A program made the translations under genes and the position numbers. Shown here piece by piece: positions 4,068 through 44,209 of a stretch of DNA of 44,209 nucleotides. Numbering within the stretch: the stretch's first letter is position 1; each line of letters starts with the position of its first letter. The notes beneath the pieces are model-generated. The model was not told where the DNA came from. It saw only the letters and a program-made list of their open reading frames with translations, and made no database searches. Origin of the DNA: Gammaproteobacteria bacterium (GTDB lineage Bacteria > Pseudomonadota > Gammaproteobacteria > Steroidobacterales > Steroidobacteraceae); NCBI GenBank assembly GCA_020029535.1, contig JAIBJM010000013.1, positions 1 through 44,209 on the forward strand. The letters run 5' to 3'.

Positions 4068-4538
4068 ATGACAGAGCAGCGGCGCCGGGCGCTGAAAGTC
4101 CGGATCCTCGATGCGCGCATAGGCAGTGAATTTCCATTGCCGGCCTATGCCACCGGTGGTTCTGCCGGCCTGGATCTGCGCGCCTGCCTCGCCGAACCGC
4201 TGATCCTGCAGCCGGGACAGACCGAGCTGCTGCCCACCGGCCTGTCGATCCATCTGGAAGATCCGGCGCTGGCCGCCGTCATCCTGCCGCGCTCGGGTCT
4301 GGGCCACAAACACGGCATCGTGCTGGGCAATCTGGTGGGTCTTATCGATTCCGACTATCAGGGGCCGCTGATGGTGTCGTGCTGGAACCGCGGCAACGCG
4401 GCATTCACCATCCAGCCCGGCGAGCGTATCGCGCAGCTGGTGGTGGTGCCGGTGGTGCAGGTAGATCTGGAAGTGGTGACGGACTTCGCCACCTCGGCGC
4501 GTGGCGATGGCGGCTTCGGCCACAGTGGCCGGCACTGA
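4068..4538 (+). CDS. dut: deoxyuridine 5'-triphosphate nucleotidohydrolase (dUTPase)
   Basis: Hydrolyses dUTP to dUMP and pyrophosphate, keeping uracil out of DNA and feeding dTMP synthesis. 156 residues with all five trimeric-dUTPase motifs in order: GSAGLDLRA (catalytic Asp region), [27 protein letters not shown], and the C-terminal [10 protein letters not shown] arm that closes over the active site. It is 6 nt downstream of coaBC, the usual gammaproteobacterial order, and ends one base before the convergent DUF4124 gene. Confidence 0.96.
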
Positions 4539-7200: not shown

Positions 7201-7583
7201 GCGCCGAAATCGATCTCGAGCGCGTGTTGTGCCGGCTTGCCGATCTGCAGATCAGCGGCTGTCGTGAGTTCAGGCTGGGCGGCGGCGAATGGCCGCTGCG
7301 CGGCTTTGTGGTGCGCACCCGGGATGGCGTGCGCGCCTACGTCAATCGCTGCGCGCATCTGCGCTATCCGTTGAACTATGCCGAAGACCGCTTCCTCAGC
7401 TACGACGGCAGCATGATTGTCTGCTTCGTGCACGGCGCATTGTTCGAAAAGGAAAGCGGCTATTGCGTGGCCGGGCCCTGCGCGGGTCTGTCGCTGGCGC
7501 CGGTGCCGGTGCGGCTGGAAGGCGACCTGGTGCTGCTGTCCGAAGCAGTGGATCCCGCGGAATTCGCTGCGCGCTACGAGTGA
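7197..7583 (+). CDS. small Rieske-type [2Fe-2S] protein
   Basis: 128-residue soluble protein with a full Rieske cluster-binding pattern: C52-x-H54 (NRCAHLRYPL) and C76-x2-H79 (VCFVHGALF), then the usual GYCVAGPCAGL loop. No catalytic oxygenase domain or transmembrane segment is present, so it would act as an electron carrier or ferredoxin-like component. Its start overlaps the stop of the AmpG-like permease by the ATGA sequence, so it is coupled to that gene. It ends 7 nt before the convergent DUF6763 gene. The partner enzyme is unknown. Confidence 0.88.
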   Translation: MSAEIDLERVLCRLADLQISGCREFRLGGGEWPLRGFVVRTRDGVRAYVNRCAHLRYPLNYAEDRFLSYDGSMIVCFVHGALFEKESGYCVAGPCAGLSLAPVPVRLEGDLVLLSEAVDPAEFAARYE

Positions 7584-35280: not shown

Positions 35281-35356
35281 GGCCGGGTAGCTCAGTTGGT
35301 AGAGCAGCGGATTGAAAATCCGCGTGTCGTTGGTTCGATTCCGACCCCGGCCACCA
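35281..35356 (+). tRNA. tRNA-Phe (anticodon GAA)
   Basis: 76-nt cloverleaf with acceptor GGCCGGG / CCCGGCC, D-loop AGCTCAGTTGGTAGAGC, anticodon loop TTGAAAA flanked by CGGA / TCCG (anticodon GAA), T-arm GGTTCGATTCC, discriminator A and encoded CCA. Its last 25 nt recur at 36379-36403, marking it as an integration site. Confidence 0.96.
35332..35356 (+). repeat. att-like direct repeat, left copy (3' end of tRNA-Phe)
   Basis: The final 25 nt of tRNA-Phe (from GGTTCGATTCCGAC to the CCA) match 36379-36403 at 24 of 25 positions. tRNA 3' ends are the standard attachment sites of integrases. Confidence 0.75.
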
Positions 35357-35407
35357 TCAATTTGTGGGTCTATCCCGGTCACATGGGTGACGGTTTATAC
35401 CGGAGAC

Positions 35408-35716
35408 ATGGGTAACACTCACATTGGCTCCGCGCTGAGTGTGGCGCAGTACGGGGGCAAGCATCCGGACGCCAAGGCATGGAAGGGTTTGGGATCCGGC
35501 GTGTTCGAGGTGGTGAGCAACTTCGACACCAATACGTTCCGCGCCGCCTATGTCGTGCGATTTGCGGAGGCAATTTACGTACTGCACTGCTTTCAGAAAA
35601 AGTCGCCCAGCGGAATCAGGGCCGCCAAGACGGATGTGGATTTGATCGCACAGCGGTTGAGGATGGCCGCTGCGGATCATGAGGAACGATATGGCAAAGC
35701 GAAGAAAGAGCGCTGA
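35408..35716 (+). CDS. HigB/Gp49-like toxin, N-terminally shortened
   Basis: 102 residues from the ATG at 35408, the first start in the conserved part. The sequence from IGSALSVAQYGGKHPDAK onward, including LGSGVFEVVSNFDTNTFRAAY and IYVLHCFQKKSPSGI, fits the phage Gp49-like/RelE-fold toxin family, ribonucleases that cleave mRNA. Relatives carry roughly 30 more N-terminal residues before this point, with the pattern of a short strand and helix; here that place is taken by the DNA next to the tRNA. The toxin is therefore probably inactive or altered. It overlaps the antitoxin start, toxin first, the HigBA order. Confidence 0.72.
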   Translation: MGNTHIGSALSVAQYGGKHPDAKAWKGLGSGVFEVVSNFDTNTFRAAYVVRFAEAIYVLHCFQKKSPSGIRAAKTDVDLIAQRLRMAAADHEERYGKAKKER

Positions 35717-36023
35717 GATCGAACGCAGCTCCGGGAACGTGTTCACGGACCTGGGCCTGCCCGATGCCGTGGAACTGGATACCAAGATGCGCTTGGCCGT
35801 GGCAATCAACCGGCTGTTGACGGCCAAGCACCTGACTCAGGCCGATGCCGCCGCCAGGTTGTCGATCAATCAACCGAAGATCTCGGCTCTGAAGAACTAC
35901 AAGCTGGAAGGCTTTTCGGTCGAGCGGCTGATGGGGTTTCTGACGGCGCTGGGTAGCGACATCGAGATCCGTATCGGGCCGCCGAAGCGCTCGCCAGGCA
36001 GGATCGTGGTGGAAGCGGCGTAG
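35691..36023 (+). CDS. XRE-type helix-turn-helix antitoxin (HigA-like)
   Basis: 110 residues from the ATG at 35691 (35679 is possible). The N-terminus is basic (MAKRRKSAEIERSSGNVF). A helix-turn-helix follows: LAVAINRLLTAKHLTQADAA, ARLSINQPKISALKNYKLEG. These antitoxins neutralise the linked toxin and repress their own promoter. The start overlaps the end of the toxin frame. The gene is intact, so it may persist as a regulator after loss of toxin function. Confidence 0.85.
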   Translation: MAKRRKSAEIERSSGNVFTDLGLPDAVELDTKMRLAVAINRLLTAKHLTQADAAARLSINQPKISALKNYKLEGFSVERLMGFLTALGSDIEIRIGPPKRSPGRIVVEAA

Positions 36024-36097
36024 ATGCGAATGCTTGAACCACGTTTGCAGCCGTGCGAACGGCCACATAGTTTCTCCCGCAACTGCATGAGGGAGAA

Positions 36098-36378
36098 ATG
36101 GCCACGAAAAACCCAGCCGGCCGCTAGCTGCGGCTGACGGTCTTCTTGATCAAGGAAGGCTACGCCACCGTCGAGTCCTTGGTGGCTTTCGCAGCAAGCC
36201 ACCGTGGGCATCTCTCTTCGAGGAAATTCCAGGTTTCGATTCAAGCAAGATTGTGAACCAGGGATCCCGTGCCGTGTTCGTCACACAGATTTCCAAGCGC
36301 TGGTTCTGTTTTACTTTTGGCTACGCGCGCCGTCTGATTCTCGATACGGCCATAGAGCGCAACTTCGGCCTCATTGTC
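36098..36378 (+). pseudogene. broken N-terminal part of a DUF6119 / TIGR04141-type gene
   Basis: An ATG with GGGAGAA upstream begins MATKNPAGR, is interrupted by an in-frame TAG (36125-36127), and continues LRLTVFLIKEGYATVESLV, the usual beginning of this family. The reading frame then shifts near 36185-36195 and continues as SKPPWASLFEEIPGF, SRAVFVTQISKRWFCFTFG and RRLILDTAIERNFGLIV, again a family hallmark (wFaltFGyGr ... FGL). It stops at the tRNA 3'-end copy. Intact relatives are about 500 or more residues. Family recognition is from memory of the pattern. Damage: one stop, one frameshift or small deletion, and loss of most of the gene. Confidence 0.65.
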
Positions 36379-36403
36379 GGTTCGATTCCGACGCCGGCCA
36401 CCA
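36379..36403 (+). repeat. att-like direct repeat, right copy (tRNA 3' end without a tRNA)
   Basis: Matches the last 25 nt of tRNA-Phe with one C-to-G change; its T-arm (GTCGG / CCGAC) is perfectly paired and CCA is present, but no upstream tRNA halves exist. It marks the right boundary of the mini-island. Confidence 0.75.
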
Positions 36404-36412
36404 ATTTTTCGG

Positions 36413-37513
36413 TTACTTGCCGCGCTCCAGGTATCCCTGCGCCAGCATCGGCAATATGTAGACCTCGTCGATGACCTGCGAGTCCGGTGCACCCGGATTC
36501 ACCTGATGCGGACCGATGGCGAACAAGGTCTTCTTGCCGGGTCCGCCGAAGACCACGTCGACGAGGCGACGCGGCGCCGGAATGGTGCCCAGATATTTGC
36601 CGTCCGGCTCAAACACGCGCACACCTGCGTCGCCGGTGATGTAAATGCGACCCTGCGAATCCACCGTCGCGCCGTCATTACCGCCACCGGGAATCTGCGC
36701 CAGCATGCGTGTGTTGCTGAGCATGCCATCGGCACCGACATCTCCGACGTACAGATTGCCGCCACTGCCCATGTACAGCCTGGTCTCATCGGGGCTGAGC
36801 GTCGCGCCATTGACCGGCTGGTCGAATACCTTGGTTACCTTGCCGTCGGGACTGGCGTAGTAGTACCCAGTCCAGGCGAAGTAGACGCCACCGTTGTGCA
36901 GCGCTGCGGCTGAGTCCATCACGCCAGAGCCTTGACACTCGAGCGCCTCACCCTTGTAGGAATTGGCAATGAGTTTTCGTTCCGGCGCCAACTGCCATAT
37001 CGATGGAATCAGCGAGCGCTCGGCGATGAACAACTCGCCCTTTTTATTCAGGGCGAGCGAGCCGCCGGTATTGGTGTCCTTGTAAGCGACCGTGGCGTGG
37101 CCTTCGGGAGTGAGGCGCACGACTTCGCTGTTGTCGTTCTGTGCAATCAGCACGCTGCCGTCAGGCAACCCGACCATGCCGTCGGTATTGTTGCCGGTCT
37201 GCACCCAGATCAGCTTCCACTTCACGTCCGCATCGACCACGCCGGGAATGGCCTTGATCGAATACGGGAACGGACCGACATCCGGTGCCGTCGCCCGGGC
37301 CAGCAACGCGGCAGGAATCTGCGGCCGCGGTGGCGGCTGTTTGCACATGGCGCGCAGCACCTCGCTGCGCAGATCCAGCCCGGATTGAAGGCCCGAACCT
37401 GCCGGCTGCGCCTTGCTGATGGGAACGGGATATGGACGGCGGTCCGGCTGTGCCGCATTTGCGGTCAGCACTGCGCCGAGCGCGAAGAGAAAAGCCAAAG
37501 AGAGTGGTTTCAT
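36413..37513 (-). CDS. exported SMP-30/gluconolactonase-like beta-propeller protein
   Basis: 366 residues. A signal peptide (MKPLSLAFLFALGAVLTANA) directs it to the periplasm. The mature part is a beta-propeller with repeated blades (GMVGLPDGSVLIAQND, GSLALNKKGELFIAERS, GATLSPDETRLYMGSGG, GATVDSQGRIYITGD), as in SMP-30/gluconolactonase-like enzymes that hydrolyse sugar or aromatic lactones with a metal ion. Substrate unknown. Its ATG overlaps the stop of the lyase gene upstream (ATGA), so both come from one transcript. Confidence 0.82.
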   Translation of the reverse strand: MKPLSLAFLFALGAVLTANAAQPDRRPYPVPISKAQPAGSGLQSGLDLRSEVLRAMCKQPPPRPQIPAALLARATAPDVGPFPYSIKAIPGVVDADVKWKLIWVQTGNNTDGMVGLPDGSVLIAQNDNSEVVRLTPEGHATVAYKDTNTGGSLALNKKGELFIAERSLIPSIWQLAPERKLIANSYKGEALECQGSGVMDSAAALHNGGVYFAWTGYYYASPDGKVTKVFDQPVNGATLSPDETRLYMGSGGNLYVGDVGADGMLSNTRMLAQIPGGGNDGATVDSQGRIYITGDAGVRVFEPDGKYLGTIPAPRRLVDVVFGGPGKKTLFAIGPHQVNPGAPDSQVIDEVYILPMLAQGYLERGK

Positions 37514-38505
37514 GATGGTCGCCCTTTCTTTTGGATTGTCCGCGAGAAATCCACCCGGTGGCCCCGGGTAGAGGTGTAGTCGCGCTGCGCTTTCTTCGGC
37601 AGGTATTTGTCCTCGATCTGGCGGATGCGCGCGGCGCCCACCAGCTTGGCCTGCGGAACCCGACCCCACTTGCTCGAGTTGGCGCGGCCGTTCCACGCGT
37701 GCAACGCCGTGCCGCCGTCCTTGCGCACGTCGTTGAGCAGTTCCCACGCCGCCTGTAGTCCGGCAGTGGCGCAGAACACCGGATAGAGGACGATGCGCAG
37801 TCCGAGTTTTTCGTACTCCGCTTCGGTGGGCGGTGTGTCCTCGCCGCCCCAGATGGCGAGCACCGGCGCCGGGATTTCCTTGCAGGCGCGCTTCACCTGC
37901 TGGCGCGTCTCGACCGAGTTGAGCCAGACGAAGTCGGCGCCGCCCTGTTCCACATAGGCGATGCAGCGCTCCAGTGCGTCGTCGAAGTTGCTGCCCTCGG
38001 CACCCAGCGCGTCGCAGCGGGCGCAGATCACGAACTCGGGGTCGAGTTCGTCGCGGGCGGCCACCGCGGCCTGCAACTTGCCGACCTGCTCTTCCTGGCT
38101 GATCACCCGGCGCCCGGCCAGAGTGGATGATTTCTTCGGCGCTTCCTGGTCTTCGAGCGACAGAGCGGCGACGCCGCTGCGTACCATCTCCTGCACCGCG
38201 AAATGCACATTGACCGCGTTGCCGTAGCCTGTGTCGGCATCGATCATGATCGGGATATCGGTGCGTGCTGCCAGGTGGCGCGCGTGGTCGGCCACGTCGC
38301 GCAGCCCGATGATGCCGTTGTCGGGCACACCGTACAGGAACGCGGAAAGTTGCGAGCCGGCCATGAAGAAGGTTTCAAACCCCACCTCCTGGGCGAGACG
38401 GGCGTAAAGCGGCGAGAACCCGCCTGGCATGACGGTGAGCCGTTTGCGTTTCAGGATGGCGCGCAACTTGCGCCGCTTGTCGGTGGATGAGGGGGGCTTC
38501 GCCAC
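37510..38505 (-). CDS. isocitrate lyase / PEP mutase superfamily enzyme
   Basis: 331 residues. The superfamily core is clear: SPLYARLAQEVGFETFFMAG, then IMIDADTGYGNAVNVHFAVQ (metal-binding Asp pair), LSLEDQEAPKKSSTLAG, and ICARCDALGAEGSNFDDALE. The loop that reads KKCGH in isocitrate and methylisocitrate lyases reads KKSST here, so the catalytic cysteine is absent. A decarboxylase, hydrolase or aldol-type lyase on another 2-oxo or hydroxy-acid is more likely than a true isocitrate lyase. The start is GTG at 38505 with GGAG 8 nt upstream. It is divergent from the TonB receptor gene. Confidence 0.87.
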   Translation of the reverse strand: MAKPPSSTDKRRKLRAILKRKRLTVMPGGFSPLYARLAQEVGFETFFMAGSQLSAFLYGVPDNGIIGLRDVADHARHLAARTDIPIMIDADTGYGNAVNVHFAVQEMVRSGVAALSLEDQEAPKKSSTLAGRRVISQEEQVGKLQAAVAARDELDPEFVICARCDALGAEGSNFDDALERCIAYVEQGGADFVWLNSVETRQQVKRACKEIPAPVLAIWGGEDTPPTEAEYEKLGLRIVLYPVFCATAGLQAAWELLNDVRKDGGTALHAWNGRANSSKWGRVPQAKLVGAARIRQIEDKYLPKKAQRDYTSTRGHRVDFSRTIQKKGRPS

Positions 38506-38535
38506 GGTCTTTTCTCCAATGCGGTTTCCAGCATT

Positions 38536-38594
38536 CCGGAAATGGGCCGAGGCAGATCGGGAACGGCTCCATTCCATGGTCCCAGTTGTATCAT
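38536..38594 (+). promoter_or_regulatory. conserved operator/promoter module A, upstream of the TonB receptor
   Basis: Block 38536-38580 matches 43957-44000 at 38 of 45 columns. It includes an imperfect inverted repeat with half-sites AATGG (38541-38545) and CCATT (38569-38573). TATCAT, a likely -10, lies 8 nt after the block at 38589-38594, in the same position as in the other copy. It lies between divergent genes, so it may serve both. See the finding on this pair. Confidence 0.65.
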
Positions 38595-38644
38595 CGTCCC
38601 ACAAAAGCATAGAGCCATTGAATTTGGCGCATGGGGGGAGATGT

Positions 38645-40933
38645 ATGAATCGCTATTCAATTGCGGCGCTTGTTCATGCGTTGCCTTTTCTTGTTGTCGC
38701 CGCTTCGGCATGGGCGCAGGACGATGCTCTCGATGAAGTTGTCGTCACTGCGCAAAGGCGTGAGGAGAGCGCGCAAAGGTCCGCGATTGCGATTTCAGTA
38801 GTGACTCCTCAGGACCTGGCCGATGCGGGGATCACAAATCCGGTCGAACTGACCAAGATCGTGCCGGCCCTTCAGGTCACGCCCACCTCAAGCACCTTCA
38901 CCATTTTCAACATCCGCGGCATCGCCAATTACGCCGTCAATCCCTGGTCGGACCCCGCCATCCTCTTCAATTATGACGGCGTCCCGATCGCACGTCCGAC
39001 CGGTGTCTACGGGCTCTTTTACGATCTGGAGCGCGTCGAGGTGCTGAAGGGGCCGCAGGGCACTCTTTACGGCCGCAATGCCACGGGCGGCGCGATCAAC
39101 GTTCTACCGCATCGTCCGGAACTTGGAAAATTCGGCGGCGATCTCAGCGTGGAGATCGGCAATTACGATCTGAAACATGTCGCTGGCGCTGTGAACGTGC
39201 CCGTGACGGACCAGGCCGCGCTGCGCGCCGCCTTCGACATCATGGACCGGGATGGCTATCTCTCGACCGGAACCAGCGACAATGTCGGCCAAGCGGGGCG
39301 GCTGCAGTTTCGGGTCGAGCCTTCCGATGCCCTGTCGATCGTTTTGGGCGGCGACTACTATCATCAGGGTGGCCGGGGACCCGGCTCCACCCTCATCCAT
39401 GGGCGATATCTCGTCGGCACGTCACAGGCCGACCCGCAGATGCGCCAGCCCGTCGCGGGCTCCTGGACAGACCTCAACGATCCGTCGGTCTGTGCGGCCA
39501 CGGCCGCCTATTTTTCGAATGACCGCTCGGTCTGCCTGAACACCTCCCGCGTGGACAACACATTCTGGGGGGTCAATGCGACCATCGACTACCAATTCAG
39601 TTTCGGCACCTTCACCATCCTCCCCGCCTATCGGCGATCGACAGTCAACTTCGACGGGCACAACAATCCCAACTTCCACCAGCGCCTGGTCGAAAAGCAG
39701 ACCTCCGTCGAGGCACGGCTTGCCTCCAATGACACCGACGCTCCGCTGAAATGGGTTGTCGGCGGCTTCTGGCTGGACAATCCCAGCCACGGCGACATGG
39801 GCGTCAGCCTGCGGCCAACGGAGCTGACCCTGCTGAGCAACCTGACAGACCTCGGCACCACCAGCTGGGCGGCGTTCGCCCAAGGCACCTATTCCGTGCG
39901 ACCCCGGGCGCGTGTCACTGCGGGCGTTCGCTACACGCGTGACGAAAAGGACTTCGAGGCCCGCGCTGTCGACAACACCGGTGCGATCACCGGGGTCGTT
40001 GGCAGGACGCTATCGAGCCAGGATCGCAACAAGTCCTGGAGTGCGGTAACCGGCAAGGCGGGCGTCGAATTCGATGCGGCGGACAACTCGCTGCTCTATT
40101 TCAACTACGAACGCGGTTACCATTCGGGCGGCTTTTTCATCACCGGTTTGCCCAACGATAACTACAAGCCCGAGACCGTGCAGGCCTATACGGTGGGCTC
40201 CAAGAATCTTTTCCTCGACCGGCGTCTGCAGGTCAATGTCGAGGCCTTCCACTACTACTATACAAATCAGCAGATCTCGCATCTCATGACGAGCGTATTT
40301 GGAGGCGTGCCCGCTCCAGGATTCGTCACCGAAAATGTCGGCAAGTCCAGGATCTGGGGTGTGGAGCTTGATACCGCGTATAAGGTCACGCCCAACACGC
40401 TCATCACGGCGGATCTGCAATGGCTGCGCGCCAGGTACGACGAATTCACTTACTCCTCCGGCGTTGCACCGACCACTTCGGGCTGTACCGCCCTCGCTCC
40501 AAGACCAACCGGGATCGCGGGATTCCCGGTCAGCTTTTTCTATGATTGCAGCGGCAGACAAATGGTGAATTCACCGACCTGGAAATCCGCGGTCGGGATC
40601 CAGCAGACCATTCCGCTCGGCAATGGCGGCGACATCGTCGGTGAAATGCGCGCCTATGCCCAATCCAGCGCCTGGCTCAACGGCTATGACTATTTGCCGT
40701 TCGATCGCGACGGCACGAATTGGAGCGGAGACGTATCCCTTTCCTATCGTGCGCCGGAGGAACGCTGGAGCCTGACGGCCTTCATGAACAACTTCACCAA
40801 CGAGAGAAACGCTGCGGTTATCTATGGGACCGGCGACACCGAGAACTCTGTGACGCATGCCAACGGCTCGCCGCCCACGGCGGTATGGAAGGCGCCGCGT
40901 ACCTACGGCGTTCGCATGGCAGCGCATTTCTAG
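38645..40933 (+). CDS. TonB-dependent outer-membrane receptor
   Basis: 762 residues. Signal peptide to about residue 24, then a TonB box (DEVVVTAQRREES), a plug domain (LTKIVPALQVTP, FNIRGIANYAV, ERVEVLKGPQGTLYGRNATGGAINVL) and a 22-strand-type barrel ending in RTYGVRMAAHF with the terminal phenylalanine of outer-membrane proteins. This type, common in sphingomonads and related environmental bacteria, imports large or hydrophobic substrates. GGGGGAG lies a few nt before the ATG. Placement beside lyase, dehydrogenase and oxygenase genes suggests uptake of the catabolic substrate rather than iron. Confidence 0.93.
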   Translation: MNRYSIAALVHALPFLVVAASAWAQDDALDEVVVTAQRREESAQRSAIAISVVTPQDLADAGITNPVELTKIVPALQVTPTSSTFTIFNIRGIANYAVNPWSDPAILFNYDGVPIARPTGVYGLFYDLERVEVLKGPQGTLYGRNATGGAINVLPHRPELGKFGGDLSVEIGNYDLKHVAGAVNVPVTDQAALRAAFDIMDRDGYLSTGTSDNVGQAGRLQFRVEPSDALSIVLGGDYYHQGGRGPGSTLIHGRYLVGTSQADPQMRQPVAGSWTDLNDPSVCAATAAYFSNDRSVCLNTSRVDNTFWGVNATIDYQFSFGTFTILPAYRRSTVNFDGHNNPNFHQRLVEKQTSVEARLASNDTDAPLKWVVGGFWLDNPSHGDMGVSLRPTELTLLSNLTDLGTTSWAAFAQGTYSVRPRARVTAGVRYTRDEKDFEARAVDNTGAITGVVGRTLSSQDRNKSWSAVTGKAGVEFDAADNSLLYFNYERGYHSGGFFITGLPNDNYKPETVQAYTVGSKNLFLDRRLQVNVEAFHYYYTNQQISHLMTSVFGGVPAPGFVTENVGKSRIWGVELDTAYKVTPNTLITADLQWLRARYDEFTYSSGVAPTTSGCTALAPRPTGIAGFPVSFFYDCSGRQMVNSPTWKSAVGIQQTIPLGNGGDIVGEMRAYAQSSAWLNGYDYLPFDRDGTNWSGDVSLSYRAPEERWSLTAFMNNFTNERNAAVIYGTGDTENSVTHANGSPPTAVWKAPRTYGVRMAAHF

Positions 40934-40955
40934 CGTTCGCCGTCCAGTGCATGAG

Positions 40956-43085
40956 TTATGGCTGCTTCGCCAGTGCCGCGTCCTCATGCGCGCGGGCGGT
41001 GACGTAGTGGCGGATATTGTCCGCCTCCTGCGAGGTCATCACCGGCGCCCAAGAAACCATACCCCCCTCTTTCAGCACGCCGTCGATGACGATGATCCGC
41101 CACGTATTCGCATTCTCGAGCGTGGCGCTGTAGCGCAGATCCGGATTGAGCGCGCCGGACACCGCTGCATCGCCGTGGCAGACGCTGCAGAAGCGCGCGA
41201 ACAGCGCCTTGCCCTGCTCAACCTGCTGCGGTGAACCGGTCAGCTTCGGCGGATCGAGCGGCAAGCGGGTGGGAGGCGGTGGTGCAGCGGGCAGTTGCGC
41301 GGTGCCACCGAGCTTGAACACCAGCAACCGGCTGATGTTGCGGATCGGCCCCGACTTGTCGGCGAGTACGCCGGTAGCAACGTCCCAGACGCCGCCCCAG
41401 CCGGCCATCACCGCGACATACTGCACGCCGTTGATCGAATAAGTCATCGGCGCGGCCATCACGCCACTCTGCACCGGCATCCACCAGAGCTTCTGCCCCT
41501 TGTCGGCACTGTAGGCGATGAAATTGCCATTGGCGGTGCCTTCGAACACCAGGTTGCCGGCGGTCGAAAGAGAGCCGCCGTTCCAGGGTCCGACATAGTC
41601 CACGCGCCATCGCGTTTTCTGCGCCACCGGATCCCACGCCACCAGCGCGCCGGTGCTCCCGGCACGTGCCATCCCGCGTTGCCTGATATCGGCCGGCATG
41701 GCAGTTTTGCCGGCGTCCATCGCCGTGTTGTAGCCGAGCTCGGCCGGCTTCCAGTCGGGACCCGCTGCCGCATAAGGGAAGGACACTTCGTTGACCGGAA
41801 TGTATACCAGGCCCGTCTTCGGGCTGAATGACATCGGCTGCCAGCTGTGTGCGCCGGCTGCGCCGGGAAGCGAGATGAAGGGCGTTCCGGTCTTGTCGTA
41901 AAACGCGGCCGGGATCGGCGACGGGCGGCCAGTCACCGGATCGATGTCGCGGGTCCAGTTGATCGCCCTCACGAACGGCTTGGCCGAGAGGAACTTGCCG
42001 GTCGCCGCGTCGAGCATGTAAAAGAAGCCATTCTTCGGCGCATGCAGCACAACGCGCCTCAGCTGGCCGTTCACCGGCAGCGTCGCCAGCATGATGTGCT
42101 GGGTCGAATCAAAGTCCCAGCGGTCGCCGGGCGTTTCCTGAAAGTGCCAGACGTATTCGCCTGTCTTCGATCTCACCGCGACGATGGAGGAGGTGAACAG
42201 ATTGTCGCCACCCTGAGGCGAGCGCACTGATGCATTCCACGGGCCGCCGTTGGCGGTGCCGAAATAAAGCAGGTCGAGATCGGGATCGTAGGCGATCGCA
42301 TCCCACACCGTGCCGCCGCCGCCATATTTCCACCATTCGCCGGTCCATGTCCTGGCTGCCTGGGCGAGCGCCGGCTGCTCGAACGGCTGCGACGGATCGC
42401 CGGGCACGGTATGGAAGCGCCAGACCCGCTTGCCGGTGGTCGCGTCGTAGGCGCTGATATAGCCGCGGGCGATATATTCGGCGCCGCCATTGCCGATGAT
42501 CACCTTGCCGTCGATTACCCGCGGCGCGCCGGTGATGGTGTAGACCTTGTCCTTCTCGGTGGTATCGACGCTCCACATCGGCGTGCCTGTCTTGCGCTCG
42601 ATCGCGATCAACCGGCCGTCCAGCGTGCCGATATAAAGCAGGTTGCCCCAGGCGGCAAGGCCGCGATTGACAGCATCGCAGCAGGCCCGGACGAGCGTTT
42701 CGCGCGGCACCTTCGGATCGTAGGTCCAGAGCAATTTGCCGGTCGCGCCGTCATAGGCTTTGACCAGGCTCCAGGCCGTGGAGACGTAGAGCACGCCGTC
42801 GATTACGAGTGGCGTCGCTTCCTGGCCGCGGGCGGTGTCGAGATCGGAATACCAGGCGAGGCCCAGCTTGCCGACATTTTGATCGCTGATCTGCTCGAGC
42901 GGGCTGTACCGCTGCTCGTCATAAGTGCGGCCGACGGTCAGCCAGTTGTCGGCATCCTGATTGGCGGCGAGCAGTCGCGCGTGCGTGACGGCGCCGTTGC
43001 TTTCCCCCTGCTTCTCGCTCTTCTGGACTGAACACCCGCTGATGAGCAGCGTTGCGGCAAGCAACGAACCCAGGAACTGACGCAT
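40956..43085 (-). CDS. PQQ-dependent quinohaemoprotein alcohol dehydrogenase, lipoprotein-type
   Basis: 709 residues. A lipoprotein signal ends LLISGC18. The eight-bladed PQQ propeller is seen through repeated tryptophan-docking motifs (GKLLWTYD, YAVAMAGWGGVWDVA-like strands) and the vicinal disulfide C135-C136 (RACCDA). NWTRDIDP probably holds the catalytic Asp. A C-terminal cytochrome c domain carries C633-S-V-C636-H and a likely axial Met in GGMVSWAPVMT. Such type II enzymes oxidise primary or secondary alcohols in the periplasm and pass electrons to cytochromes. It starts 8 nt after the IclR gene on the same strand, one operon. The ATG at 43085 (GAGG upstream) was preferred over GTG at 43097. 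Confidence 0.94.
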   Translation of the reverse strand: MRQFLGSLLAATLLISGCSVQKSEKQGESNGAVTHARLLAANQDADNWLTVGRTYDEQRYSPLEQISDQNVGKLGLAWYSDLDTARGQEATPLVIDGVLYVSTAWSLVKAYDGATGKLLWTYDPKVPRETLVRACCDAVNRGLAAWGNLLYIGTLDGRLIAIERKTGTPMWSVDTTEKDKVYTITGAPRVIDGKVIIGNGGAEYIARGYISAYDATTGKRVWRFHTVPGDPSQPFEQPALAQAARTWTGEWWKYGGGGTVWDAIAYDPDLDLLYFGTANGGPWNASVRSPQGGDNLFTSSIVAVRSKTGEYVWHFQETPGDRWDFDSTQHIMLATLPVNGQLRRVVLHAPKNGFFYMLDAATGKFLSAKPFVRAINWTRDIDPVTGRPSPIPAAFYDKTGTPFISLPGAAGAHSWQPMSFSPKTGLVYIPVNEVSFPYAAAGPDWKPAELGYNTAMDAGKTAMPADIRQRGMARAGSTGALVAWDPVAQKTRWRVDYVGPWNGGSLSTAGNLVFEGTANGNFIAYSADKGQKLWWMPVQSGVMAAPMTYSINGVQYVAVMAGWGGVWDVATGVLADKSGPIRNISRLLVFKLGGTAQLPAAPPPPTRLPLDPPKLTGSPQQVEQGKALFARFCSVCHGDAAVSGALNPDLRYSATLENANTWRIIVIDGVLKEGGMVSWAPVMTSQEADNIRHYVTARAHEDAALAKQP

Positions 43086-43093
43086 CTGACACC

Positions 43094-43861
43094 TCACCGC
43101 CTGGATGCCATTATTTTTGGAGCGGAGAGATCTTCGGCCAGCATCTGGGCTGACGAAATCAGCAGCAGGACCAGGCGTTGTTCGAGAGCGCGGTTGAGGA
43201 TTCTGGCTTCGACCACCAGGCTCAGGCTGGCCGCGGTGCCGGAGGCCGCCACGACCAACGGCACGGCAATGCCAACCAGCCCCTTGTCGATCTCACCGCG
43301 CGTGATGGCGTACCCGGCCCGTCGTATGCCGGCCAGATGCTGCTGCAATTCTTCAAACCGCTCGTGCCGGGTGCGACGGGAGAGAGGCTCCTTCTCCCAC
43401 AGGCGCTTCAAGCGCCGGGTCGGCAGCTGAGCCAGGATGGTCTGTGAGGTGGCGCCGAGCATGAGGGGCATGGGCCGGCCCCGTTCATAGCTGGAATGGA
43501 CAGTGGCCCCCGGGGCCGGCGCATCGGCAATGCACATCACTGTTTCGTGATAGAGCCGGGCCAGCAGGCCCACGCAGACAATCTGCGCTTGCCGGACCAC
43601 CTCCTGCAACAGCTGTTCGCCCTTTTGCATGAGCGGGTCGGTCAGGCGCATCAGCCGATCGAATTTCACGAACGCAGCGCCGAGCCGATAAGTGGCGCCT
43701 GCGGAGGGTTCCAGGAAGCTCTCGGCGACCAACTCACGCACGGTGCGATAAACCGAGCTGGCCGGCACATTCAGGGCCTCGGACATGGCCGGTACCGTCC
43801 ATGCGCCTTGCCTCTCACTGAACAGGCGCAACACCGTGGTAAAGCGGCTCAGGGCAGGCAT
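43094..43861 (-). CDS. IclR family transcriptional regulator
   Basis: 255 residues. N-terminal winged helix-turn-helix (RFTTVLRLFSERQG, MSEALNVPASSVYRTVREL) and C-terminal effector-binding domain (GATVHSSYERGRPMPLMLGATSQTILA, GYAITRGEIDKGLVGIAVPLV). IclR proteins often control catabolic operons and bind aromatic or small acid effectors. It heads the dehydrogenase operon and is divergent from a Rieske oxygenase gene; the 45-bp element between them is the natural candidate for its binding site. Confidence 0.92.
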   Translation of the reverse strand: MPALSRFTTVLRLFSERQGAWTVPAMSEALNVPASSVYRTVRELVAESFLEPSAGATYRLGAAFVKFDRLMRLTDPLMQKGEQLLQEVVRQAQIVCVGLLARLYHETVMCIADAPAPGATVHSSYERGRPMPLMLGATSQTILAQLPTRRLKRLWEKEPLSRRTRHERFEELQQHLAGIRRAGYAITRGEIDKGLVGIAVPLVVAASGTAASLSLVVEARILNRALEQRLVLLLISSAQMLAEDLSAPKIMASRR

Positions 43862-43956
43862 TGTTCGCTCTCAGATTCCCGACGGGATGCGAGATTTTAT
43901 TGATGACAACTTATCACAGCGAACCCCCGCAGTTGCGCGACATTCGATCCGTAAAT

Positions 43957-44014
43957 CCGGAAATGGATCGAGGCGTTCCGGATCGGCTCCATTCGATGGT
44001 GCTGGCGATATCAT
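43957..44014 (+). promoter_or_regulatory. conserved operator/promoter module B, upstream of the Rieske oxygenase
   Basis: Block 43957-44000 matches module A at 38 of 45 columns. Half-sites AATGG (43962-43966) and CCATT (43989-43993) are present, and TATCAT (44009-44014) lies 8 nt after the block. It sits between the IclR gene and the Rieske gene, divergent, so self-control of the regulator is plausible. Confidence 0.65.
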
Positions 44015-44053
44015 GGCAGCACCTCATCGAGCACTGAATTTTCGGAGTCGTTC

Positions 44054-44209
44054 ATGCTTTCGAAGGAGCGAAACGAACTGGCCTGCCGCAGCGGTGCGGG
44101 CACGGCCGGTGGGAAGCTGTTCCGCCAGTACTGGCAGCCGATTGCGCTGACGACGGATTTTCCGGCCGATGGTGCGCCGTTGCCGATCCAGGCACTGGGG
44201 GAGAAGTTC
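44054..44209 (+). CDS. Rieske ring-hydroxylating oxygenase, large subunit, N-terminal 52 residues (cut by right edge)
   Basis: The visible part reads MLSKERNELACRSGAGTAGG, then KLFRQYWQPIALTTDF and PLPIQALGEKF, matching the beginning of phthalate 4,5-dioxygenase-type large subunits, which lead into the Rieske domain. The Rieske cysteines and the iron-binding catalytic domain lie beyond the window. GGAG (44044-44047) lies 6 nt before the ATG. It is transcribed away from the IclR gene and is preceded by the shared operator-like element, so it is probably part of the same regulon. Confidence 0.8.
   Translation, partial: MLSKERNELACRSGAGTAGGKLFRQYWQPIALTTDFPADGAPLPIQALGEKF

Follow-up and report, generated by a model that had tools for sequence, protein, structure and literature searches.

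A paired operator-like block in both divergent promoter regions of a sporadic catabolic cluster in a member of the Steroidobacteraceae

The catabolic cluster and its probable origin

The window analysed here is the whole of one contig (C23; JAIBJM010000013.1, 44,209 nucleotides) from a gammaproteobacterium of the family Steroidobacteraceae, whose assembly (GCA_020029535.1) holds 2,871,623 bases in 120 contigs and is 95.17% complete. Towards the right end of the window lies a catabolic gene cluster (Table 1) that carries two copies of one operator-like block, referred to as sites A and B. Site A lies between a minus-strand lyase and propeller-protein gene pair and the plus-strand gene for a TonB-dependent receptor; site B lies between a minus-strand pair consisting of iclR and a pyrroloquinoline quinone (PQQ) dehydrogenase gene and the plus-strand gene for a Rieske oxygenase. 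Together the two sites occupy both divergent promoter regions present in the part of the cluster that the contig covers. A first-pass annotation, made from the sequence alone, had likewise placed them between divergent gene pairs and before the TonB-receptor and Rieske genes, and our gene calls agree.

Table 1. Features of the cluster and of its two divergent regions, in order of position
Feature	Coordinates	Strand	Remarks
SMP-30/gluconolactonase-like propeller protein	36413..37513	-	Pfam PF08450, on open reading frame 36413-37747
Phosphoenolpyruvate (PEP) mutase/isocitrate-lyase family lyase	37513..38505	-	GTG start; Pfam PF13714, 144.8 bits
Site A, shared operator-like block, 46 bp	38535..38580	+	AATGG at 38541, CCATT at 38569, ATGG at 38576
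TATCAT, putative -10 of the TonB-receptor promoter	38589..38594	+	start site would lie near 38601
TonB-dependent receptor, downstream of site A	38645..40933	+	Pfam PF00593, PF07715
PQQ-dependent alcohol dehydrogenase with cytochrome c domain	40956..43097	-	TIGR03075, 618.6 bits (cut-off 480.05)
IclR-family regulator	43094..43861	-	PF09339, 35.5 bits; PF01614, 55.8 bits
TGATGACAACTTATCA, predicted operator of the local IclR, group-2 arrangement	43901..43916		40-55 bp upstream of iclR
Site B, shared operator-like block, 45 bp	43956..44000	+	AATGG at 43962, CCATT at 43989; one base shorter between half-sites
TATCAT, putative -10 of the Rieske-gene promoter	44009..44014	+	start site would lie near 44021
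Rieske oxygenase N-terminus, 52 amino acids, downstream of site B	44054..44209	+	truncated by the contig end; tblastn

The start of the propeller gene, placed at about 37513 from the translation, abuts the stop of the lyase gene, and the two probably form one operon. The PQQ-dehydrogenase gene and iclR overlap by 4 bp. Membership of the regulator in the IclR family is given by its HTH_IclR and IclR_C domains, which both exceed the curated cut-off; the best NCBIfam model is that of PcaR/PcaU/PobR (TIGR02431), at 66.3 bits below its cut-off of 284.75. By tblastn the truncated product starting at 44054 resembles annotated Rieske 2Fe-2S proteins, with identities reaching 55.8%; it matched no NCBIfam model. 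Nine Rieske-domain matches were found in the genome, one of them within the window, and none of the nine looked right, by position, for the continuation of this gene on another contig. The one within the window, at 7302-7484 and thus away from the cluster, is a partial match (33.5 bits, over the Pfam cut-off).

The proteins of the cluster are rare among genomes of the same order and class; those searched were a sample of larger groups, with scoring confined to the few best candidates of each, which leaves absence elsewhere unproven. At a threshold of 1e-100 the lyase occurs in 1 of 396 genomes of the order (the genome under study), the IclR protein at 1e-40 in 2 of 396, and the TonB receptor at 1e-150 in 2 of 396 (this genome and one designated G388) and at 1e-180 in 1 of 369 genomes of the class. 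A tRNA-Phe gene (35281-35356) precedes the cluster: its 3' end (35329-35356) is repeated at 36376-36403 with 26 of 28 bases identical, and the catabolic genes begin right after this second copy. At 0.62-0.63, the G+C content of the cluster falls in the lowest part of the range seen across the window (0.62-0.69). The cluster is sporadic and, to judge from these features, likely an island acquired at tRNA-Phe. Between the two tRNA-Phe copies lie Gp49-like and HTH_37 open reading frames (35312-35716 and 35679-36023), resembling a toxin-antitoxin pair. In three genomes of the same genus (G007 on contig C4, G008 on C39 and G010 on C400) the tRNA-Phe 3' end is matched twice on a single contig, the two matches being separated by about 18, 5.8 and 3.6 kb. 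This looks like use of the tRNA gene for integration within the genus, although some of these matches may be other tRNA genes.

The shared block and its geometry

In a local alignment sites A and B, which have the same orientation, are identical in 39 of 46 columns, with six mismatches and one gap of a single base; the 38 of 45 reported in the first-pass annotation is this alignment minus its first column. From the start of AATGG to the start of CCATT the distance is 28 bp in A and 27 bp in B (about 27-28 bp at first pass), the two half-sites spanning 32-33 bases, and six of the seven differences fall between them. TATCAT begins 20 bp after CCATT at both sites, an equality that the annotation had also seen. 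The alignment of A with B scores 55; in 2000 dinucleotide shuffles of the intergenic region of B the scores averaged 17.7 and never exceeded 33. The flanks score 12 upstream (shuffle mean 13.8) and 17 downstream (shuffle mean 14.5), and since this is chance level the similarity ends at the block plus TATCAT. It was thus rightly remarked at first pass that the two regions are less alike outside the blocks and that more than a duplicated gene start is involved, for block and geometry are kept while the flanks are at chance. The block also carries a six-base direct repeat, TCSGGA, with a spacing of 21-22 bp. A perfect 8-bp inverted repeat, ATCCGGAA...TTCCGGAT, lies inside site B (43955-43983), and A retains part of it.

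Within its own genome the block was found twice. BLAST with the region of A returned A itself and then B (E = 7.7e-7), the seven other matches being 15-27 bases long with E values of 0.75 or above, and a sequence model built from A and B found just these two copies. Across the 44-kb window a consensus pattern with the spacing of B, allowing up to three mismatches, found B alone (0 expected); this pattern cannot catch A, which has one extra base. The genome-wide search for the element that had been proposed at first pass therefore ends at two copies in 2.87 Mb of a 95% complete assembly, and a dispersed repeat is rejected for this assembly. In a set of 98 genomes, including the present one and leaving out G388, 37 have some match to the A/B model at E <= 1, under strict filters that lose weak matches. 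Outside the window there are 49 such matches, the best with E = 0.007 (G109); open reading frames were listed for two of the 49 loci (G109 and G015), and both matches lie inside long ones. A match in 1 of 59 other genomes (G028, E = 0.0015) falls within an open reading frame of 450 amino acids.

On the minus-strand side the distance from block to gene differs, being 29 bp from A to the lyase start and 94 bp from B to the iclR start. The fixed distance to TATCAT, taken with these unequal distances on the opposite side, ties the geometry of the block to the plus-strand promoters. No sigma-70 consensus pair was found by consensus scan in either divergent region, which says little because the shuffles themselves yield only 0.1-0.2. 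The pair is real and looks functional, and the best reading is that a single operator serves at two places, A and B being two copies of a promoter-operator module. If the start sites are where we infer them to be, the regulator would then cover positions from about -66 to -21 in the promoters of both the TonB receptor and the Rieske oxygenase. The right half of the block would fall where a -35 box is expected, its distance to the putative -10 being the same in both promoters, and this geometry would suit an activator that compensates for a weak -35. Substrate uptake and oxidation would thus be turned on together, the receptor and oxygenase genes probably responding in common through the shared block; site A, given its closeness to the lyase start, may also act on the divergent lyase operon.

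The predicted operator of the IclR subfamily

The first-pass annotation had named the local IclR protein as the simplest candidate to bind the block, and the operator of its relatives bears on this. Relatives were taken from plasmids and from 38 loci of the genome collection. A palindrome was first spotted by eye upstream of about 20 relatives and of the relative in G388, and was scored afterwards: TTMTC-N6-8-GAKAA has 36 matches in 41 related loci (680,466 bases, G388 counted once), as against 3.5 in mononucleotide shuffles, and 23 of the 41 loci hold at least one site. Six of the 36 matches (in L030, L032 and L039) are of a CTCCC type and probably unrelated. An operator matrix was made from 19 distinct sites with seven central bases from 18 loci, dropping the CTCCC-containing matches and omitting G388, and scores its own sites at 22.1-36.9. 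Upstream of iclR in G388 it reaches 22.7, the next best score on that contig being 5.8. Among 16 of the 22 other loci outside the matrix, 11 hold a site of at least 16.5 somewhere in the locus, including the gammaproteobacterial L053 at 23.2; the other five (L017, L022, L042, L046 and L051) reach just 3.6-15.2. We predict from this footprinting that the operator of the subfamily is TTMTC-N7-GAKAA, perhaps with a half-swapped variant. No paper was found in a literature search for an IclR site combining TTATC and GATAA. Where the palindrome was found among the loci of relatives (L011-L054), it stands before iclR itself or before genes next to it. Three annotated rhizobial plasmid loci have genes for a VOC protein, a fumarylacetoacetate hydrolase-family protein and a 3-(3-hydroxyphenyl)propionate hydroxylase beside the IclR relative.

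The block looks unlike this operator. As an operator of the relatives' type it scores far below true sites, the best matrix score being -5.3 in region A, -11.8 in region B and 0.7 in the whole window. The G388 relative is 83% identical to the local protein and identical over VPASSVYRTVRELVAE, which we take to be the recognition helix.

The half-sites of IclR-family regulators are described as occurring in two arrangements that are swapped versions of each other, in addition to three-box sites (PMC8222616). A scan for the swapped (group-2) arrangement, with one or two bases between the subfamily half-sites, placed its best site in the 44-kb window at 43901-43916 (score 12.5, the next 8.95); the best placement in region A scores -8.4. 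When both arrangements were allowed, 1000 dinucleotide shuffles gave P = 0.032 for the intergenic region 43862-44053 and 0.28 for the region of A, and dinucleotide shuffles gave 0.022 for the TonB region and 0.001 for the iclR region of G388. A mononucleotide P value for the site at 43901 was 0.007, to be set against the dinucleotide 0.032, and the shuffles behind the palindrome count of 36 to 3.5 were mononucleotide as well. A separate IclR site in the window at 43901-43916 is thus a prediction with modest support. On the 8.7-kb G388 contig (L068) the best swapped site, TGATATATCATTATGA (4374-4389, score 14.2), lies upstream of a TonB-receptor gene; this upstream sequence had been viewed before the swapped arrangement was scored. 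It overlaps a second, weaker swapped site, and the receptor is 51% identical to that in the window.

Candidate regulators of the block

The A/B model has no match in the 41 loci of IclR relatives or in the G388 TonB contig, and the relatives' loci yield at best an A/B-like score of 22.5, less than the 23.5 reached by shuffled sequence (L047 duplicates L054 in this scoring). Upstream of 26 of the IclR-relative loci, with 200 mononucleotide shuffles each, the best A/B-likeness score was 25, compared with 55 for A with B; the lowest P values were 0.005 (L018), 0.025 (L053) and 0.05 (L029), and those of the alpha- and betaproteobacterial relatives L017 and L042 were 0.25 and 0.23. Such low values are unremarkable among 26 tests, and a half-site likeness, GGGAATGG, in L017, L027 and L042 was therefore dropped.

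As the operator of the IclR relatives differs from A/B, a second regulator is the likelier binder, and we favour, at roughly even confidence, the reading in which A/B is a shared module recognized by such a protein. This regulator may be encoded beyond the contig end, while the local IclR is predicted to bind at 43901-43916. Activators of the LysR or AraC/XylS type have sites that overlap the -35 region. The A/B block resembles these in its extent, about -66 to -21, and its TCSGGA repeat fits an AraC-type layout; it differs in that the sequenced part of the cluster showed no regulator of these types and in that the direct repeat is only six bases long. To our knowledge the specificity of the block fits no published site. 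Of what the first-pass annotation claimed, the operator-like block with its two copies, one in each divergent region, stands, and the proposal of IclR as its binder is weakened by the different operator of the relatives.

Several observations weigh against a second regulator at A/B. The sole regulator gene in the sequenced part of the cluster is iclR, and no second regulator was identified there. The element is absent from the pair of G388 contigs that carry the relatives of IclR and of the TonB receptor, the only part of G388 searched for it, and it thus has no support from a second genome. The significance of the 43901 site is modest (P = 0.03), and three other swapped sites of 13.0-14.7 occur in nine loci, related and unrelated (77,790 bases, L068 included). 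No full canonical group-1 site was found in the genome, where six places with one mismatch were found versus two for a reversed control, and the local IclR may thus have changed its site. A second operator model (R2) likewise found no site in the genome, although this model is weak, giving the G388 site on which it was trained an E value of only 7.5; its match in G388 is circular because the model contains that site. Regulators of 60-70% identity can, moreover, favour different motifs (PMC13273656).

That iclR is the sole regulator gene seen in the cluster and that no full canonical site was found also speak for the main alternative, which we regard as clearly the less probable: the local IclR would bind A and B directly, possibly with two dimers on a site that drifted in this lineage, and would repress or activate the whole cluster. 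Its gene adjoins site B, and the left half of the block, GGAAAT, resembles the half-site TGGAAAT of an IclR motif quoted in PMC13273656. The succession ATGG/CCAT/ATGG is reminiscent of the three-box sites of this family, and PMC8222616 also describes tandem sites separated by 18-22 nt. PheR of Sphingobium sp. SHPJ-2, an IclR-family protein, governs a phenanthrene-degradation operon and affects TonB/ExbBD-dependent functions (PMC13273656), a likeness in both aromatic degradation and TonB-related effects; the core reported as essential for PheR, GCAACG, lies in a 44-bp footprint at one promoter, whereas A/B is another sequence at two promoters. With the published IclR operators (PMC8222616), among which tandem and three-box layouts are known, the block has in common that its half-sites are paired, inverted and placed before regulated genes; it is unlike either consensus given there in sequence or spacing. 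By eye its half-sites fit neither GKTYCRYW3-4RYGRAMC nor TGRAACAN1-2TGTTYCA, which are palindromes of about 15-18 bases, compared with the 32-33 of AATGG-CCATT. Binding by the local IclR is further opposed by the other operator in the relatives' loci, including that of the 83% identical protein with the same predicted recognition residues, by the lack of any A/B-like element in the 41 loci, and by the better subfamily-like site that stands apart from the block at 43901-43916.

It is rather improbable that A/B is a promoter segment copied by a short duplication, to which no specific regulator binds today. The acquired look of the cluster would agree with this, as would the extension of the conserved stretch from the half-sites into the -10; but 39 of 46 columns are kept between flanks at chance level, and the differences fall mostly between the half-sites, a pattern that would suit a binding site under selection rather than a neutral copy. 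A dispersed repeat or transcribed RNA element is hardly credible: site B as single-stranded DNA folds better than its shuffles (z = -2.35), but site A does not (z = 0.48), Rfam gave no match at gathering score in 36000-44209, the block would lie upstream of the start sites, and only two copies were found in the genome.

If A/B is indeed read by a second regulator, the cluster might have two layers of control, a scheme that we put forward tentatively: IclR would autoregulate iclR and the PQQ dehydrogenase through the group-2 site, and the second protein would read A/B, coupling receptor-mediated uptake with ring oxygenation. If the shared-module reading is right, the cluster would be a compact case of one operator joining uptake across the outer membrane to the initial oxidation, and one in which a neighbouring regulator is testably separable from the site assumed to be its target. 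As a by-product, our analysis offers a predicted operator for an IclR subfamily that in three annotated rhizobial plasmid loci adjoins aromatic-degradation genes.

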